Shown here: piece after piece, positions 22,001 through 36,296 of the stretch
Position numbering within the stretch: the stretch's first letter is position 1
How the letters are laid out: the number at the start of each line of letters is the position of its first letter
Translations under genes and position numbers: made by a program
Notes under the pieces: generated by a model
Told to the model about the DNA's origin: nothing
The model's database searches: none
What the model saw: only the letters and a program-made list of their open reading frames with translations
From: Leptolyngbya sp. FACHB-36
GTDB lineage: Bacteria > Cyanobacteriota > Cyanobacteriia > Leptolyngbyales > Leptolyngbyaceae
Assembly (NCBI RefSeq): GCF_014695955.1
Contig: NZ_JACJPG010000436.1
Span: 1 to 36,296, forward strand
Direction: 5' to 3'
DNA: 36,296 nucleotides

Positions 22001-22933
22001 ATGAAGCCAACGTCCCTGGTCTTTCTCATCTTGCTCGCGGCAAGCCTGAGTGCGATTCAGCCTGCCTATGCTGACAGTGTCGCGCTGGATTTTTCTCCAC
22101 CTGATACCGAGCAGAGCGATCGCACACCCGATCGTGCTGACGAGGTTAGCCAGCGGGCATCGGAAGCGCCACGATCAGACGCGCCACGATCAGACGCGCT
22201 CAGTTTTTCACCGCAAACCGTGCGGGAACCACCAAAGATTCAGCCAGTCGCACGGCGATCGACTGACCCTACTGAATCTCCAGCTCAGTCTCCAGCGTCT
22301 GCTGATCTGTTTGTGGGTGGCTCCGATTCGCTAGTTGCCCGCACTGTCGGACATGCCGAGGGCACGCGCGGAGCCGACGGCAGCAAAACGTCTGCTTACC
22401 ACGGGCACCGCGATCCCGGCAATGGCGTGTGGAACCTGGGCAGCTTTTCCTTCCAGCACTGCCGCGAGGCGCAGTATCAGTGCCGCACACCGGAAGAAGC
22501 CGACGTGCACCAACTACGACGCTTGCAGGGTCAGGCACAAGCGTTGCAGGCGCGATCGCGGACCACGGGTGTAGAGATGACGCTGGAAGAGCAGCTCAAC
22601 GGCATCGACTTGGCGAATCAAGCTCCCCTTGCTGCCCTCGGTTCGCCAGGATACGTCGAACGGCTAAAGCAGGCGCACCAGCTAGGTCTGCGAGGCTCAG
22701 ATGCCGTTCTTTGGGCGCGAGTGCGCTCTTACTGGAATCCGGAGCAAAATCGCTGGGATGCTCCAGGACTCGGCAATACAGAGGCTGGCATTACTCACGA
22801 TCAAGCACGTCGTCAACAAGCCATTGATCACGCGATGCGGCACCGCACGTCCATTGCACGACGCGATGAGCGAGCACAGCGAAACCAGGTAGCGGAGCAA
22901 ATTATTTTTCAGGATTTACCCAAACAGAATTAG
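22001..22933 (+). CDS. Exported hypothetical protein, possibly lysozyme-like
   Basis: The ATG at 22001 opens a 310-aa protein with a clear signal peptide (SLVFLILLAASLSAIQPAYA, cleavage after AYA near residue 24). A low-complexity stretch includes a 15-bp direct duplication (22166-22180 and 22181-22195, coding APRSD twice). The mature domain begins about residue 105 with VARTVGHAEGTRGADG, YHGHRDPGNGVWNLGSFS and two cysteines (QHCREAQYQC). It continues through LNGIDLANQAPLAAL, RSYWNPEQNRWDAPGLGN and a Arg/His-rich tail. The first block, with a single conserved-looking Glu followed by small residues, is reminiscent of goose-type or phage-type lysozyme active sites, but this is only a guess. It is the third plus-strand gene in a row, after a 71-bp gap. 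Confidence 0.75.
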   Translation: MKPTSLVFLILLAASLSAIQPAYADSVALDFSPPDTEQSDRTPDRADEVSQRASEAPRSDAPRSDALSFSPQTVREPPKIQPVARRSTDPTESPAQSPASADLFVGGSDSLVARTVGHAEGTRGADGSKTSAYHGHRDPGNGVWNLGSFSFQHCREAQYQCRTPEEADVHQLRRLQGQAQALQARSRTTGVEMTLEEQLNGIDLANQAPLAALGSPGYVERLKQAHQLGLRGSDAVLWARVRSYWNPEQNRWDAPGLGNTEAGITHDQARRQQAIDHAMRHRTSIARRDERAQRNQVAEQIIFQDLPKQN

Positions 22934-30459: not shown

Positions 30460-31083
30460 TGGTGTAACTGGATGTTGACCGTAGAAGGGCAGCGCCTCCG
30501 ACCAATGGGGGCGCTGCCCTTGTTTCCAGGCGGCGTGGGCTAATTCGAGCAGACTGCCAACCGTTTCGCCTAATCCGTCCTCGGCTGACACCAACTGGTA
30601 GGGTGTTTTTAACTGCTCTAGCGTTTGTTGCCACTGCTCAGCGCTCATCAAGGTATCTGGCAAAAGGGTCTGGAGTTCAGAGTCTACCGATTGGTAGACA
30701 GCACCAAAGAGTTCGCCACGTTGAGCACGCATTTGCACCGCGATCGCCCGATCGTTCGCTCGGTTCGCCCAGGCGATCGCGGCTAGCGTTGAGACGGCAA
30801 ACAGCGGAATCTGAAGCTGCTGTGCTAGCGTGCGGGCAGTGACAACCCCGATACGGGTGCCAGTGAAGCCGCCCGGACCGTTTGCAACAGCGATGAATGC
30901 TAGATCCGTCCAAGTCTGTGGCTGCAGAAACTCGGCTAGATGCTGATGCAAATAGCTAGAAACCTCGCGCCCCAAGCCCCAAACCTGCACACGGATGTCT
31001 CCCGTGAGCGGACCGATCGCCAGTCCCAATTCTGGGCTGGTGGTGTGAATGGCTAGTCCATAGGTAGTGCAAGGCAAATTCAT
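30451..31083 (-). CDS. tsaB: tRNA threonylcarbamoyladenosine biosynthesis protein TsaB
   Basis: TsaB is the inactive dimerisation partner of TsaD in making t6A37 on ANN-decoding tRNAs. The N-terminus YGLAIHTTSPELGLAIG is the ASKHA-fold phosphate-1 region, and ANGPGGFTGTRIGVVTARTLA is the family signature (GPGSFTGLRIG type). The middle (AVSTLAAIAW, MRAQRGELFGAVY) also fits. The length is 210 aa. The start is the ATG at 31081-31083, with no obvious SD. tsaD and tsaE are not in the window. An uncertain open frame lies 16 bp upstream on the same strand. Confidence 0.94.
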   Translation of the reverse strand: MNLPCTTYGLAIHTTSPELGLAIGPLTGDIRVQVWGLGREVSSYLHQHLAEFLQPQTWTDLAFIAVANGPGGFTGTRIGVVTARTLAQQLQIPLFAVSTLAAIAWANRANDRAIAVQMRAQRGELFGAVYQSVDSELQTLLPDTLMSAEQWQQTLEQLKTPYQLVSAEDGLGETVGSLLELAHAAWKQGQRPHWSEALPFYGQHPVTPQS

Positions 31084-31099
31084 CTAAGTTTGAGCTGTG

Positions 31100-31585
31100 T
31101 TAAGGGACGTGTGGGGTAGCGTAACGTTCAATCCGAGCCTCGGCAACCCATACCGCTGCTTGATGCAGAGCATTGATAAAAGGTATGCGGGATTTGACAG
31201 CATATTTTACTCCAGCCATACTCCGGGCGGAATTAAGCAGCGATCGCGCCGTGAACACAGAAATTGGGTAGCTGAGGTGAGAAACCGCGTAGTCGAAACC
31301 AATACAATCCTGTTTCAAGCCGCTGAAACTGAGCAATGGCGATAATAAGTCGGATTGATGCCTGATTATTTGCGCAGTTGGGCAGACTGGACACGGATCG
31401 ACAGCCGAGTCGATCAGAAAGTCCTCATCGATAGCCAAAGCATTAAGCGTGCTGAAATAGTGAGTCAGGCGAGCGGCGATCGTGATCGCAGACAGCAATG
31501 GTGTTATTGAAAAAAGCTTTTGGCAATTGGGATTGCTTTTCAGCTGGACAGGAGAGATAACGGCGTTTACCTCGACGATGAGCAA
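31100..31585 (-). CDS. Uncertain open reading frame upstream of tsaB
   Basis: This is a 161-codon frame without stops on the minus strand, 16 bp before tsaB. The only in-frame start is a TTG (31583-31585) without an SD. The sequence (for example ITIAARLTHYFSTLNALAI, DYAVSHLSYPISV, and a CPVC motif) matches no family that I know. The complementary plus-strand frame in the same codon register also looks protein-like (NPYRCLMQSIDKRYAGF), but is broken by two TAA and a TGA codon. I therefore list the minus frame as weakly supported. It could be a decayed gene on either strand. Confidence 0.3.
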   Translation of the reverse strand: MLIVEVNAVISPVQLKSNPNCQKLFSITPLLSAITIAARLTHYFSTLNALAIDEDFLIDSAVDPCPVCPTAQIIRHQSDLLSPLLSFSGLKQDCIGFDYAVSHLSYPISVFTARSLLNSARSMAGVKYAVKSRIPFINALHQAAVWVAEARIERYATPHVP

Positions 31586-31672
31586 ATCACCATCTTGAGT
31601 AGGAAGACGGAAACAGAATCAGAGGTCAGAATTCAAAGAAGGTTTTACACATAGATTAAGAAAGGAGGCATC

Positions 31673-32128
31673 ATGAAAGTTCTGGTCAGCAGTTTGCTTT
31701 TCAGCATTGCGTTATCATTTGGACCAGTGGCACATGCACAAAATCGCCCAACTTCGACTGGTCAAGTAACGGCAATGGTGGAAGCTCTGCGAAAAGCAGC
31801 ACCTAGAACTGGCAAGCAGAATGATGGTCTGTATAGTGATTGGCAAGTGAAACCCGAAACGGCTCGTGGTTGGTCAAAGCAATGTTTAGGACGAGAAGTC
31901 ACGCCCTCTCAGTTTGAAAGCAGTCCTGCAACTGCAAGGCAGGTTGTGACGTGCGTTGTGCAAGATGAATTCAACAAAATGCTGCGTGCGACATCCAACA
32001 ATGAAACGAGAACGGTGCAAAGCGTGGCGTGTTGGTGGATGACGGGTCAATACAACAGTTGTAGAAGTGGGGCGACAGCAACTTATGTGCAACAAGTCAC
32101 TCGCTTTTATCAACAGCAGCGCCCCTAG
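31673..32128 (+). CDS. Small secreted four-cysteine protein
   Basis: The ATG at 31673 has an excellent SD (AAAGGAGG, 31661-31668) and opens a 151-aa protein with a standard signal peptide (KVLVSSLLFSIALSFGPVAHA, cleavage after Ala22). The mature 129-residue part contains exactly four cysteines (71, 94, 120 and 130), which suggests two disulphides, and aromatic-rich segments (NDGLYSDWQVKPETARGW, CWWMTGQYNSC). The family is unknown to me. Its codon use is more A+T-rich than most of the window and it is at the beginning of the accessory-looking right end. Confidence 0.85.
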   Translation: MKVLVSSLLFSIALSFGPVAHAQNRPTSTGQVTAMVEALRKAAPRTGKQNDGLYSDWQVKPETARGWSKQCLGREVTPSQFESSPATARQVVTCVVQDEFNKMLRATSNNETRTVQSVACWWMTGQYNSCRSGATATYVQQVTRFYQQQRP

Positions 32129-32246
32129 CTCAGACTAACGACTCCTACAAGCAACAAAATAGCTGGACAAGCTTGTTGACTGACAAACCTTCAGAAGACT
32201 TCTCCCAACTTCTCTCCAAAGCAGAAAGGAGACAAATTCCAGTTCG

Positions 32247-32263
32247 CTCTCCTCGCAGGAGAG
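32247..32263. repeat. REP-like palindrome
   Basis: CTCTCCT-cgc-AGGAGAG lies within a sequence (GTTCGCTCTCCTCGCAGGAG, then AGGGTTAGGG) of a kind found as dispersed intergenic repeats in cyanobacteria. It abuts the kinase fragment. The statement about dispersal is from general knowledge, since only one copy is in the window. Confidence 0.4.
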
Positions 32264-32492
32264 GGTTAGGGAAACTGCTCAGTAACGCTATCAAGTTTTC
32301 GGAGACAGACAGTACTGTTTAGCTGAAAGCAGACCACAAGCAGAATCGAACATCGACTGTGATCATCACCGCGATCGATCAGGGGCGAGGAATTCCGGCA
32401 GACAAGTTGCAATTATTTTCGATCGCTTTCAGCAGGTGGATGCTTCCGACTCCCGCAAAAAGCGAGGTACCGGCTTGGGGCTGGCAATCTGC
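32264..32492 (+). pseudogene. Histidine-kinase ATPase-domain fragment
   Basis: Plus-strand translation gives the HATPase core of a sensor kinase in broken form. The N-box LGKLLSNAIKFSETDSTV is followed by an in-frame TAG (32320-32322), then LKADHKQNRTSTVIITAIDQGRGIPADKLQ (G1 box). Near 32410-32415 the frame shifts, and IFDRFQQVDASDSRKKRGTGLGLAIC (F box and G2 box) continues in another frame to about 32492. Homology then fades. No dimerisation domain, sensor or start is present. The order and spacing of N, G1, F and G2 boxes leave little doubt about the origin. It is not functional. Confidence 0.88.
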
Positions 32493-32623
32493 TGCAACAG
32501 TAAGAGAAGTCGTTATAGCAGTATGCAGAACAACATAGCAGCTATTTGCTGTTTCTTGCAGCGGGTGAATAGTCTTGGTATCCTAATCTATCCACCCACT
32601 GCTGTAAATCTCAAGATGTTATC

Positions 32624-34129
32624 CTAGATCTCTTTAGTCTGGATATTTTCTTCAGCATGATTACGAAGATAAAGATACAGAACAAAGAGAATTCCAAAGG
32701 TTAGATCAATCACACCTGAAACCAAATAAAACGGATGAAGATTGCCGAACAGAGTGTGATAAGCCAGTACTGTAAAGACGCTGAATTGAGCATAGATTCC
32801 CAGCTTTATAATGGCATCATTTTTAGTAATGTCCTGGCTAACCCACCAGTAGCCAATTCCAATAATAAAGACTAATCCGTAAACAAGTTGGGAGTATTCA
32901 GTGTTGACAAGGGGTTCAGTGTTAAGTGCCTCACGTATCCATCGATCGCCGACTAAAAGGATTACTGCTTCAATCCAGTTGATCACAGCCTTTGTTTGAA
33001 ATACAAGTTTCCAGGGAATCGTGTTATTCATAAAGATGAGCCAGGATTTTGCTTGATAGCTGCTGTTACTTGGGCTAACAGAAGGTTGCGGAGGTGAAAA
33101 GGTTTTTTGTTCCTGCTGCTGTTCCTGTAGGTTGCTTTTTGCCGCCTTAAAATCAGTTGCCAGTGTCTTTTGCTGCTCGGAACTTAAATTATCTTTGATT
33201 CTGGGAAAGATGTCCCTCTCTTCCTGATCAATATGACCTCGGACTGCAAGCCTTAGCTGCTCAACCTGAGCTTTAAAATTAGGATTAGCAGGATTAAACG
33301 ATTTCATTTTGTTTAACAGTTCGATGACGTGATCGGTCTGGTCAACGATCTCCTGCATTTGGTCGTAGTAGGGGCTTAAAGCTGGATAAAGAACTTGTTC
33401 TTCTGCTAACCCATGAACTTTGACATCTTGATACAGTTGTCCAAAATACTCCCGAATTTTTTGCGGATCATTGTTGCCTAAAACTTCTGCAAATAGAATG
33501 TCCGTTTTGCTGTGGTCCATTAACAGCACATCGCGGATGCTCATTTCATCATCAGTACGTGTTACCACGCTGCCAACTACTCCCGTAAAAGCCGTGATCG
33601 CATCCTCAGTCCGTGCCTGAACTCCTTGATCTGGTTCCTGTCCGGTTAACTCCAATACACCCAGGATTTCTAAACTCCCTTTGAGTTGCTCCTGGTGAGC
33701 ACGGTTTTCAAAGTTGATTGTGTGTAAGGGAGCGATCGCAACTTCAACATCAGCACCGACAATTTGTGCCGCTTTGTGAATAATTAGTCCCGCCATTGTT
33801 TGCCGATGTTTGAGCAATTCATGCTGGAGCAATTTCTCAGATGGAGTTAACTTGGAGCCTTCTATCAGGCTTCGAGTTCTCTCCAAATTTTGCTTAACAG
33901 CGTCTTTAAGCTCTGCCTGAACACCATACTGAATCATCACGGTATCTAGAACACCCAGATTCTTCTGATCCTGTTCCAGCATGTTCTGTAGCTGTTGGTG
34001 AACGCTGTCATCATTCACCTCATTCATCAGCCGCTGCTCAGTGAGAATGAGTAGATTTTGCACTGCTTTCATCTCTGCTAGTTGCATGGCGATCGCGGTG
34101 CGTTTTGCATCCTCAAGCTCAACTGGCAT
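32624..34129 (-). CDS. Hemerythrin-domain protein with a C-terminal membrane domain
   Basis: Three parts are seen in this 501-aa protein. Residues about 1-165 form a helical ferritin-like region (DAKRTAIAMQLAEMKAVQNLL, LLQHELLKHRQTMAGLIIHKAAQ). Residues about 195-330 hold an HHE hemerythrin domain with a full diiron ligand set: His206 (LMDHSKTD), His239 and Glu243 (VHGLAEEQ), His267 (QTDHVIE), and His299 and Glu303 (RGHIDQEERDIFP). After a glutamine/proline/serine-rich linker (335-360), residues about 372-490 form three or four membrane segments (AVINWIEAVILLVG, LVYGLVFIIGIGYWWVS, LGIYAQFSVFTVLAYHTLFG, FYLVSGVIDLTFGILFVLYLYL). Hemerythrin domains bind O2 or sense oxygen, NO or iron. The SD GAGGAG precedes the ATG by 8 bp. 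It follows the stress-protein gene (28-bp gap) on the same strand. Confidence 0.9.
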   Translation of the reverse strand: MPVELEDAKRTAIAMQLAEMKAVQNLLILTEQRLMNEVNDDSVHQQLQNMLEQDQKNLGVLDTVMIQYGVQAELKDAVKQNLERTRSLIEGSKLTPSEKLLQHELLKHRQTMAGLIIHKAAQIVGADVEVAIAPLHTINFENRAHQEQLKGSLEILGVLELTGQEPDQGVQARTEDAITAFTGVVGSVVTRTDDEMSIRDVLLMDHSKTDILFAEVLGNNDPQKIREYFGQLYQDVKVHGLAEEQVLYPALSPYYDQMQEIVDQTDHVIELLNKMKSFNPANPNFKAQVEQLRLAVRGHIDQEERDIFPRIKDNLSSEQQKTLATDFKAAKSNLQEQQQEQKTFSPPQPSVSPSNSSYQAKSWLIFMNNTIPWKLVFQTKAVINWIEAVILLVGDRWIREALNTEPLVNTEYSQLVYGLVFIIGIGYWWVSQDITKNDAIIKLGIYAQFSVFTVLAYHTLFGNLHPFYLVSGVIDLTFGILFVLYLYLRNHAEENIQTKEI

Positions 34130-34157
34130 TCTTGATTCTCCTCAATTGCTTAATTAT

Positions 34158-34706
34158 TCACACAGCCGGATAAATGCCCCAATCCTGAATGTCCTGCCGG
34201 CTAAACACCTGCTCAGCACTTTGAATTTCGTCAGAACTGCCTTCTACCATTACCAAGTAGTCTCCTTGCAGAAGACGATCGCCATAAACGCTAGCTTGGG
34301 CTTCGGGAATACCTAAGTGAGTGAAGGCTTTAACAACATTGTGTGCTGCCAGTGCCCCAATTCCTGTGCCCACCGTTGTTGCAGCCAATGCAGCACCTAG
34401 GCTACCCGCTGCCAAAATGGGACCAATACCCGGTAAAGCGAGACTCGTCAAACCCACCAACACAAACGCCCAAGAGCTATGAGCAAAGGTATCCTTAACG
34501 ACTCCCAGCGGAGTTTTCACATTCTGGTCACCAATGCGATCGGTGACCTCAGCCCCACTCACTTGCTCCTCTTCACCCACCTGTTTAGCCACAATGGAAA
34601 CGTGCTCCATTGGAAAGCCAGATGCCTTGAGTTCGTTTAATGACTGTTCTGCCTGTTGCTGATTGGCAAACACGCCAACTGCTCGTTTTTTGTCATCGTT
34701 CTGCAT
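34158..34706 (-). CDS. General stress protein of the YflT type
   Basis: The N-terminal fold (RAVGVFANQQQAEQSLNELK, then GFPMEHVSIVAKQ) is the YflT/general-stress-protein 17M-like domain. A central hydrophobic, glycine-rich stretch (about residues 80-125: LVGLTSLALPGIGPILAAGS, LGAALAATTVGTGIGALAAH) could form a membrane hairpin. A C-terminal part (YGDRLLQGDYLVMVEGSSDE, EQVFSRQDIQDWGIYP) closes the fold. In bacteria such proteins are induced by heat or oxidative stress; the biochemical action is unknown. The start is the ATG at 34704-34706, with TGGAGAA just upstream; the frame opens at a GTG four codons earlier. The length is 182 aa. It is the first gene of an operon with the hemerythrin gene. 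Confidence 0.85.
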   Translation of the reverse strand: MQNDDKKRAVGVFANQQQAEQSLNELKASGFPMEHVSIVAKQVGEEEQVSGAEVTDRIGDQNVKTPLGVVKDTFAHSSWAFVLVGLTSLALPGIGPILAAGSLGAALAATTVGTGIGALAAHNVVKAFTHLGIPEAQASVYGDRLLQGDYLVMVEGSSDEIQSAEQVFSRQDIQDWGIYPAV

Positions 34707-35321
34707 AAATTTCTCCACTTAATCGTTCGTTCAACCGTTGTGGTTGCCAGGATCTACTAGAAGTGCCAGCGCCGCGATGTTTAACACTGCGATCGCGCTC
34801 CATTTTGCGCTGGACTGGGTGTTTAACCAGGTAGAAACGCTGGGATGGGCTTGCCCATTGAAATCCCCTTAGACGCGATTGTCTGCAATGAGTTCAATCC
34901 ATCTGAACGTTAACGATGGGGCTATCTTTATCCTTCTATCCAAAGGGATGAAATGAGTTAAGCGGAGCGGTGAGCACAAATACAACGCCTCTGTTTCAGC
35001 TACTAGAGCGGTTTGATAAAGATATTAGAAACAACAGGTTAGCTTCACCTTCGCCACGATTCTTACTGTTATAAAACTTTGCTGTTGTAAAACTTTATTC
35101 CTGCTTGGGGCAGAAATCCAAGAGAGCGATCGCCGCTCTTACCAGCACCAAACGTGTAGTGCAGCCTTTGCGACTGCTTGCACAGTTTCATTTCGTATGG
35201 GCGATACCGGATTTGAACCAGTGACCCCTTCCGTGTAAAGGAAAAAGTTAAAACTCTAAAATGCCTTGCTAGAAGCTGTTTTAAGTAATTTTATAAATTG
35301 GTATCCCTAAAATAATACCTA
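34707..35321. other. Gene-free stretch containing a tRNA fragment
   Basis: Apart from the tRNA-Val 3' half (35199-35243), I see no gene in these 615 bases. A 31-codon frame at 34777-34872 (MFNTAIALHF...) has no SD. The sequence should hold the promoter of the stress-protein/hemerythrin operon. Confidence 0.6.
35199..35243 (-). pseudogene. tRNA-Val(UAC) 3' half, probable attachment-site scar
   Basis: Reading the minus strand from 35243 to 35199 gives the 3' part of a tRNA. The anticodon arm TTTCC-TTTACAC-GGAAG has anticodon UAC, followed by a GGGTC variable loop, the T arm ACTGG-TTCAAAT-CCGGT and the acceptor strand ATCGCCC. All stems pair. The sequence before it (35244 onwards) contains no D arm or 5' acceptor strand (no GGGCGAT within 300 bp). 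A 3' tRNA half is what tyrosine-integrase elements leave or duplicate at attachment sites. Confidence 0.75.
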
Positions 35322-35323
35322 TT

Positions 35324-35378
35324 GTGTGTGAGATACCCTTTAAGTAACCAGAACGCTTATACCAGTTGTCTCACACAC
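35324..35378 (+). repeat. Inverted repeat near the start of the next frame
   Basis: GTGTGTGAGATA (35324-35335) and TGTCTCACACAC (35367-35378) are complementary at 11 of 12 positions with a 31-bp spacer. They lie over the proposed 5' end of the frame at 35328. They may form an operator, an mRNA stem or an element end. Confidence 0.45.
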
Positions 35379-35675
35379 TCTGACTTCCAAAACGCCGATC
35401 TCGTCCTCACCCCTACCGGACGCCTCGGAGCTGTACAGTCCTCACTATGGGAAAGGCACCATCACCTGCTGGTGCAACTCGACACGGGCGAAACCTACTG
35501 GTTTCTAACCAGGATTGTGCAGCCAGCAGAGCAGCCCTCAAGCGGCGGAGAAAGGCGGCAGGAGGAGAGCAGCGCGGTGGATACCAGCCAAGCGCCTCTT
35601 ACGGTTTGGGAACTGGACACGTCGCAGTGGTCGGACGCGATCGCGCTGCTAGGTCTCTTGACGGATTGCTCCTGA
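35328..35675 (+). CDS. Hypothetical small protein, possibly truncated
   Basis: This is a 115-codon frame without an ATG. GTG (35328) or TTG (35322) could open it, but there is no SD, so the true 5' end may be lost. The sequence is nevertheless protein-like: ADLVLTPTGRLGAVQSSLWE, HHLLVQLDTGETYWFLTRIVQ is a small beta-barrel (SH3/KOW-like) pattern. A polar linker and LTVWELDTSQWSDAIALLGLL follow. I do not know the family. It is adjacent to the tRNA fragment and probably belongs to the mobile or accessory segment. Confidence 0.45.
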   Translation: MRYPLSNQNAYTSCLTHSDFQNADLVLTPTGRLGAVQSSLWERHHHLLVQLDTGETYWFLTRIVQPAEQPSSGGERRQEESSAVDTSQAPLTVWELDTSQWSDAIALLGLLTDCS

Positions 35676-35885
35676 AAAAAGACGAAACCCGTTTCCAATT
35701 GTTGTAAAGGAGTGTTGAGCGATTGCTGGCTGAGTTCTCGGTATTGAAGCTGCAGGCGCAGATGGCGATCGTCTCTCAACTGACTGGAGCGCAAGCACGC
35801 GAATTTGTGGGACTGTAGCTTCCCCTAGAACAGCGATCGGCTTTGCTGGTGGGCACAATAGGCTTAAAGCATTCATGGATTAGTA
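35676..35885 (+). other. Short degenerate coding-like stretch
   Basis: A frame at 35717-35818 reads ERLLAEFSVLKLQAQM then AIVSQLTGAQAREFVGL before a TAG, with an AAAGGAG motif at 35706-35712. Only a TTG (35723) could start it. It looks like the tail of a small helical protein that lost its front, or a very short gene. There is nothing else in the gap. Confidence 0.3.
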
Positions 35886-36296
35886 GTGATTCCACAGAAC
35901 ATCAGCCGAGGTGACGTTATAAAAGCGATCAAGCGGATTCAAGCCGAAGGCATACCCAATAAACGACAATCGTCAAAGTTTGACTTGCTCTATCAGTGCT
36001 TCCGGTTTCCACCAAAGCTCATCCTCTCTATTGCAAACGAGTATGCTAACGGTGAACCGCTAGACTACGACTTATTCTCTAGTGGTGACGAAGCAAACAC
36101 TTATCTATCGAGCTTGGGGTTTGAAATCGTTCTGAAAGAACCTGAAAAAGTTCAATTGGTGGACCCGGAGGAAGAGGAGTTTCCTGAAGGTAAAGTTCTT
36201 TACCGTCGGCATTGTACTTACGAACCTGACCGAAGGTTGGTGACAAAAGCGAAGCAGCGGCGCAAGCGTGAGACAGGTTCTCTTGATTGCGAGGTG
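35886..36296 (+). CDS. HNH endonuclease with ScoMcrA-like N-terminal head (5' part only)
   Basis: From a GTG at 35886 an open frame of 137 codons runs off the right edge. The N-terminus IPQNISRGDVIKAIKRIQAEG, KFDLLYQCFRFPPKLILSIANEYANGEPLD, and YLSSLGFEIV match the ScoMcrA-type N-terminal head domain that precedes HNH nuclease domains in modification-dependent restriction-like enzymes. The last visible residues EGKVLYRRHCTYEPDRRLV, KQRRKRETGSLDCEV are the start of the HNH domain, in which CEVCG normally follows. The catalytic His-Asn-His is beyond the window. Such proteins cut foreign or modified DNA. The absence of ATG makes the start somewhat uncertain. Its position next to a tRNA scar fits a defence-type island. 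Confidence 0.8.
   Translation, partial: MIPQNISRGDVIKAIKRIQAEGIPNKRQSSKFDLLYQCFRFPPKLILSIANEYANGEPLDYDLFSSGDEANTYLSSLGFEIVLKEPEKVQLVDPEEEEFPEGKVLYRRHCTYEPDRRLVTKAKQRRKRETGSLDCEV

Follow-up and report, generated by a model that had tools for sequence, protein, structure and literature searches.

Islands in tRNA genes are known to form by integration between attP and attB sites with regeneration of the tRNA (Islander, PMC4383910), and integration is also a described source of tRNA fragments (PMC9897764). Class A islands of the Islander scheme combine an intact tRNA gene with a displaced 3' fragment that reaches the tRNA end, the two sharing replicon and orientation and flanking the element, have their break at the anticodon stem-loop, and carry a tyrosine integrase near the tRNA (PMC4383910). 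Type V-K CRISPR-associated transposons (CASTs) also occur in cyanobacteria, where they mostly target tRNA genes (PMC11406308).

We analyzed a locus of Leptolyngbya sp. FACHB-36 within a stretch of 36,296 bp (the window), which comprises the whole of contig C375 in an assembly (G000) of 692 contigs that is 82% complete. The window contains GCGATCGC repeats and a CpeS gene, marks of cyanobacterial DNA. Toward its right end lies a tRNA-Val 3' half that is very probably the 3' end of the chromosomal tRNA-Val(CAC), displaced to the attR site of an integrative element. As in class A islands, there is an intact tRNA together with a displaced 3' fragment that extends to the tRNA end; the break lies at the anticodon stem-loop, with identity in the window from position 28 onward, and a tyrosine integrase is found near the tRNA in sister elements. 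The locus differs from that class in that only one end lies in the window, the intact tRNA-Val(CAC) being on an unlinked contig, C186. V-K CASTs share with it the use of tRNA genes as safe sites in cyanobacteria, but their insertion beyond the tRNA is guided by RNA and displaces no tRNA half. It is well supported that the window case represents ordinary biology of a known kind, of which it is itself a new instance.

Integration of pLBA into a valine tRNA gene

Integration of this sort can be seen directly for plasmid pLBA of Leptolyngbya boryana IAM M-101 (NZ_AP014639.1). This plasmid carries a tRNA-Val 3' half at 47314-47358, its attP, and an integrase at 47512-48576 that is homologous to the integrase family represented on contig C97 of our genome. 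It is recorded as a plasmid in IAM M-101 and dg5, and pLBA DNA is integrated in the tRNA-Val(GAC) gene of a relative (L059 and L060; G029:C1 1387270-1465084). As this relative belongs to the family of our genome, L. boryana is probably a member of that family too. In a comparison covering the end flanks only, the flank after the intact tRNA of this relative is 100% identical to pLBA over 9,740 bp (attL), and the flank before the displaced half is 100% identical over 9,130 bp (attR). The two tRNA copies lie 77,814 bp apart, compared to 77,793 bp in the plasmid record. That pLBA is an integrative element, which integrates by recombination of attP with attB and regenerates the tRNA, is visible from these junctions. 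It resembles the window case in its integrase of the C97 family, its attP consisting of a tRNA-Val 3' half, and a crossover at about the same place; it differs in its use of tRNA-Val(GAC), its size of 78 kb, and its other cargo.

The displaced half and its parent gene

The half occupies positions 35198-35243 on the reverse strand and corresponds to tRNA positions 28-73 in an attR-type scar. The earlier note on this DNA had proposed a tRNA-Val 3' half here, and the half is real (E = 1e-14 against the genome's own intact tRNA-Val(CAC), C186:4427-4502), although it starts at 35198 rather than 35199 and measures 46 rather than 45 bp. The parent had been named as tRNA-Val(UAC); instead, the half matches tRNA-Val(CAC) at 44 of 46 positions, compared to 33 of 46 for the intact tRNA-Val(UAC) on C532 and 31 of 46 for tRNA-Val(GAC) on C97. 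Identity with tRNA-Val(CAC) ends at position 28 on one side and 1 bp past the tRNA end on the other. The two mismatches are C34T and A63G in the T stem, of which the former creates an apparent UAC anticodon. Every intact relative that ranks among the best matches of the half has a CAC anticodon; the "UAC" stems from the C-to-T substitution at position 34, in a copy that is displaced and no longer functional. Its pairing, described in the note as perfect, includes wobbles at T51.G63 in the T stem and at position 27 against 43.

None of the window shuffles reproduced even the last 22 bp of the half. ARAGORN called no tRNA at 35198-35243, while Rfam yielded a forced full tRNA with a broken 5' half that scored 22.3 bits, below the gathering score of 29. 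As the earlier note had stated, no 5' half is present within the window. Cyanobacterial tRNAs can hold group I introns, and the apparent UAC anticodon would suit an intron-split gene or a trans-spliced tRNA-Val(UAC), the note itself having named a 5' half joined through an intron as the finding that would speak against an island. However, a search of the flank of the half revealed neither a 5' half nor an intron family, the break at position 28 falls ahead of the anticodon loop, and the tRNA-Val(UAC) on C532, so much less similar to the half, is intact. This explanation is exceedingly improbable, and an intron-bearing or split tRNA-Val is ruled out as far as can be judged from the DNA.

We instead favor a model in which the attP site of the element, itself a duplicate of the tRNA 3' half, recombined with the attB site in the tRNA gene through a tyrosine integrase like those that adjoin valine tRNAs here. 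The crossover at the anticodon stem-loop would have linked the tRNA 5' half to the 3' half supplied by the element, which left an intact tRNA (now on C186), and would have moved the original 3' half to the far end of the element. Once displaced, this half would have been free to drift, which would account for C34T and A63G. The DNA to the right of 35243 lies on the 5' side of the half and would therefore be element DNA under this mechanism, with chromosome or an older neighbor to the left of 35198. By analogy, we infer that the window half arose through the same route as the C97 and pLBA cases.

On the chromosome side, the first gene beside the half encodes a YflT-domain protein (34158-34718, reverse strand; Pfam PF11181) and is accompanied by a hemerythrin-domain gene (32624-34129, reverse strand; Pfam PF01814). 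The G+C content is 0.44-0.45 in the stretch with the hemerythrin gene and 0.46 in the region that contains both genes, 31000-35198, compared to 0.535 elsewhere on the contig. No orthologues of the two genes in relatives were found beside tRNA-Val, and G016 has its YflT gene on a contig without tRNA-Val. Given this low G+C content and the absence of these genes beside tRNA-Val in relatives, the stretch to the left of the half could itself be an older insertion. No empty site for the window insertion was found among the compared genomes, none of which belongs to the same genus.

Valine tRNA elements in the same genome and in relatives

The genome contains a complete 22.2-kb element on C97 (L053/L117, 14-22322), located between an intact tRNA-Val(GAC) at 14-87 and its own repeated 3' half at 22274-22322 (49 bp, one mismatch). 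A tyrosine integrase at 217-1308, with a PF00589 domain plus arm-binding and SAM-like domains, lies 130 bp from the tRNA. The element also encodes a VapE/DUF3854 primase-helicase, an actin-like ATPase, a pentapeptide-repeat protein, and other plasmid-type genes. It shares with the window case the genome, the kind of att repeat, and the use of a valine tRNA, and its backbone genes are related to those that follow tRNA-Val(CAC) on C186. In contrast, the C97 element occupies another isoacceptor (GAC) and its integrase adjoins the tRNA, unlike on C186.

Past some displaced halves, at distances of about 10-40 bp, we observed TGTCGTCGGTGACAA-type repeats, namely on C97 (22334-22400; L117:4335-4400 in G000) and in G017 (L041:1050-1140). 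These presumably resemble the ends of type V-K CAST transposons.

The follow-up that the earlier note had proposed, a search for an intact tRNA and a second copy of the half, leads to the tRNA-Val(CAC) on C186 that the half matches at 44 of 46 positions. On its 3' side, the DNA resembles that of plasmids, and four genes there share 49-94% amino acid identity with genes in the middle of the C97 element. The 5' flank of the tRNA carries an actin-like ATPase gene and a small gene (L003:2969-4227), which are kept beside tRNA-Val(CAC) in G005, G007, G020, G021, and G061; the ATPase upstream of the tRNA is 74-76% identical in G005, G007, and G020. Although genes of this sort typically occur on plasmids, the family has retained the pair directly 5' of tRNA-Val(CAC).

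Two tRNA-Val(CAC)-type copies, and no more, were found in the genome: the intact one on C186, with element genes on its 3' side, and the displaced one in the window, with probable element DNA on its 5' side. They are most simply explained by a single element, whose two ends are fairly likely to be C186 and the right-hand end of the window. We hold this pairing with some reserve, given the lack of a join between the contigs, the tandem insertions seen in relatives, and the gaps in the assembly. Alternatively, C186 and the window may border different insertions at one tRNA-Val(CAC) locus, whether a second or a tandem element. This site is a hot spot, two of the relatives (G061 and G121) have two 3' halves each, and single tRNA genes are known to host tandem arrays (Islander, PMC4383910); however, a further half would then be expected, and only two CAC-type copies were found, in an assembly that is only 82% complete. 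Two separate insertions seem rather unlikely to us.

The comparison extends to relatives in which the same kind of half recurs. Among 15 family genomes, 23 genome pairs had ORFs in common in the 8.5 kb upstream of tRNA-Val(CAC), and no pair did in the 8.5 kb downstream. Displaced tRNA-Val 3' halves with the same break were detected in 12 other genomes: halves without a 5' half derive from CAC in G006, G014, G017, G019, G041, G061, G098, G121, G174, G204, and G215, and from GAC in G029. A weak extra 3' half was seen in G012. In all pairs, the stretch that is identical between intact tRNA and half starts 5' in the anticodon stem-loop, at positions ~20-32. Both copies share one contig in G041 and G204, 9.6 and 3.9 kb apart, respectively, and also in G215, at a distance of 3.3 Mb.

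The tyrosine recombinase that the earlier note had suggested looking for was located in part: one family occurs beside tRNA-Val in relatives and on C97, but none was seen in the 1.05 kb to the right of the half or beside tRNA-Val(CAC) on C186. C97-type integrases lie just downstream of intact tRNA-Val genes in eight genomes (G002, G006, G027, G029, G030, G041, G098, and G121), with that of G006 cut by a contig end and that of G041 being a fragment, and one adjoins the half in G017. As judged from these genomes, tRNA-Val genes are recurrent integration sites in cyanobacteria. The island border claimed by the earlier note is likewise supported, by the C97 element, C186, the halves in 12 other genomes, and the pLBA/G029 case. 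A second, different integrase family adjoins the tRNA-Val halves of G061 (L105 and L106), and a relative of it is encoded on C460 of our genome (4087-5271; L055), without a tRNA half in view.

Could the half instead be the homing spacer of a type V-K CAST, whose guides match tRNA genes? The CAST-like end repeats that follow the attR of C97 would fit such a transposon. However, a guide match is short and would not cover 46 bp up to the very 3' end of the tRNA, and no CAST-like repeats were seen at the window half. We give this possibility almost no weight, and return to the half as the attR border of an element inserted by an integrase.

The probable element side of the border

To the right of the half, 1.05 kb of the putative element is in view (35244-36296), ended by the contig end. 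The two frames that it contains are both rare in relatives. A 117-aa frame (35322-35675, forward strand), found in only four of 57 other genomes, encodes a small protein that also occurs in a related element: it shares 36% identity over 78 aa (E = 4e-10) with a G061 frame (L106:6238-6612) that sits inside an integrase-bearing element ending in a tRNA-Val half. This G061 element also contains three genes weakly similar to those on C186 and has a primase in common with C97.

These frames bear on whether the half is instead an old scar, orphaned when its element was lost or rearranged long ago, with the HNH-type gene and the small frame as later, unrelated arrivals. The two differences between the half and its parent tRNA and the lack of an integrase near the half are in line with this, and the separation of half and tRNA in G215 by 3.3 Mb on one contig indicates that rearrangement happens. 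Yet two differences do not exceed those in the other intact/half pairs (0-5), a relative of the small frame lies within the G061 element at tRNA-Val, and element genes still follow the tRNA on C186. An orphaned half is therefore a minority reading in our estimation, and we retain the interpretation of 35243 as the border of an element.

The second frame (35886-36296, forward strand) starts 643 bp away from the half and runs off the contig; it encodes the first 137 aa of what is probably an HNH endonuclease and breaks off ahead of the catalytic HNH motif. Its last 50 residues are ~60% identical to the linker that precedes a PF01844 domain in G037. The first 84 residues are 42% identical to a protein of the Thermococcus plasmid pTBMP1, which carries DUF7662 without an HNH hit. 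Only one of 96 other relatives has this frame. The fragment had no match in Pfam, NCBIfam, PHROGs, or PDB sequences, and its N-terminal domain is named by no library searched. No relatives were found in viral contigs and phages, compared to one match of 41% among genome contigs; a search of the genome for the rest of the gene found nothing, and a search of solved structures with the Thermococcus relative gave nothing useful. PADLOC returned only JetB at E = 0.012, which is not meaningful, and no defence model scored above noise. The earlier note had described a ScoMcrA-like HNH gene less than 700 bp from the half; the distance holds and the HNH assignment is probable, but no library confirmed a likeness to ScoMcrA. 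That a defence system is among the unseen cargo of the element is a guess.

A broader proposal, which we consider quite doubtful as a whole, is that valine tRNAs might form a shared landing ground for integrative plasmids with an actin-like ATPase, whose integrases would have switched between GAC and CAC, that RNA-guided transposons might use the same spots, and that the window element might carry a new HNH-based defence gene. At the locus itself, the half would place the border of a cyanobacterial mobile element precisely. The pLBA/G029 case gives attP, attL, and attR letter for letter and provides a start for an integration vector; these att sequences also help to locate islands, with their cargo, in such organisms.
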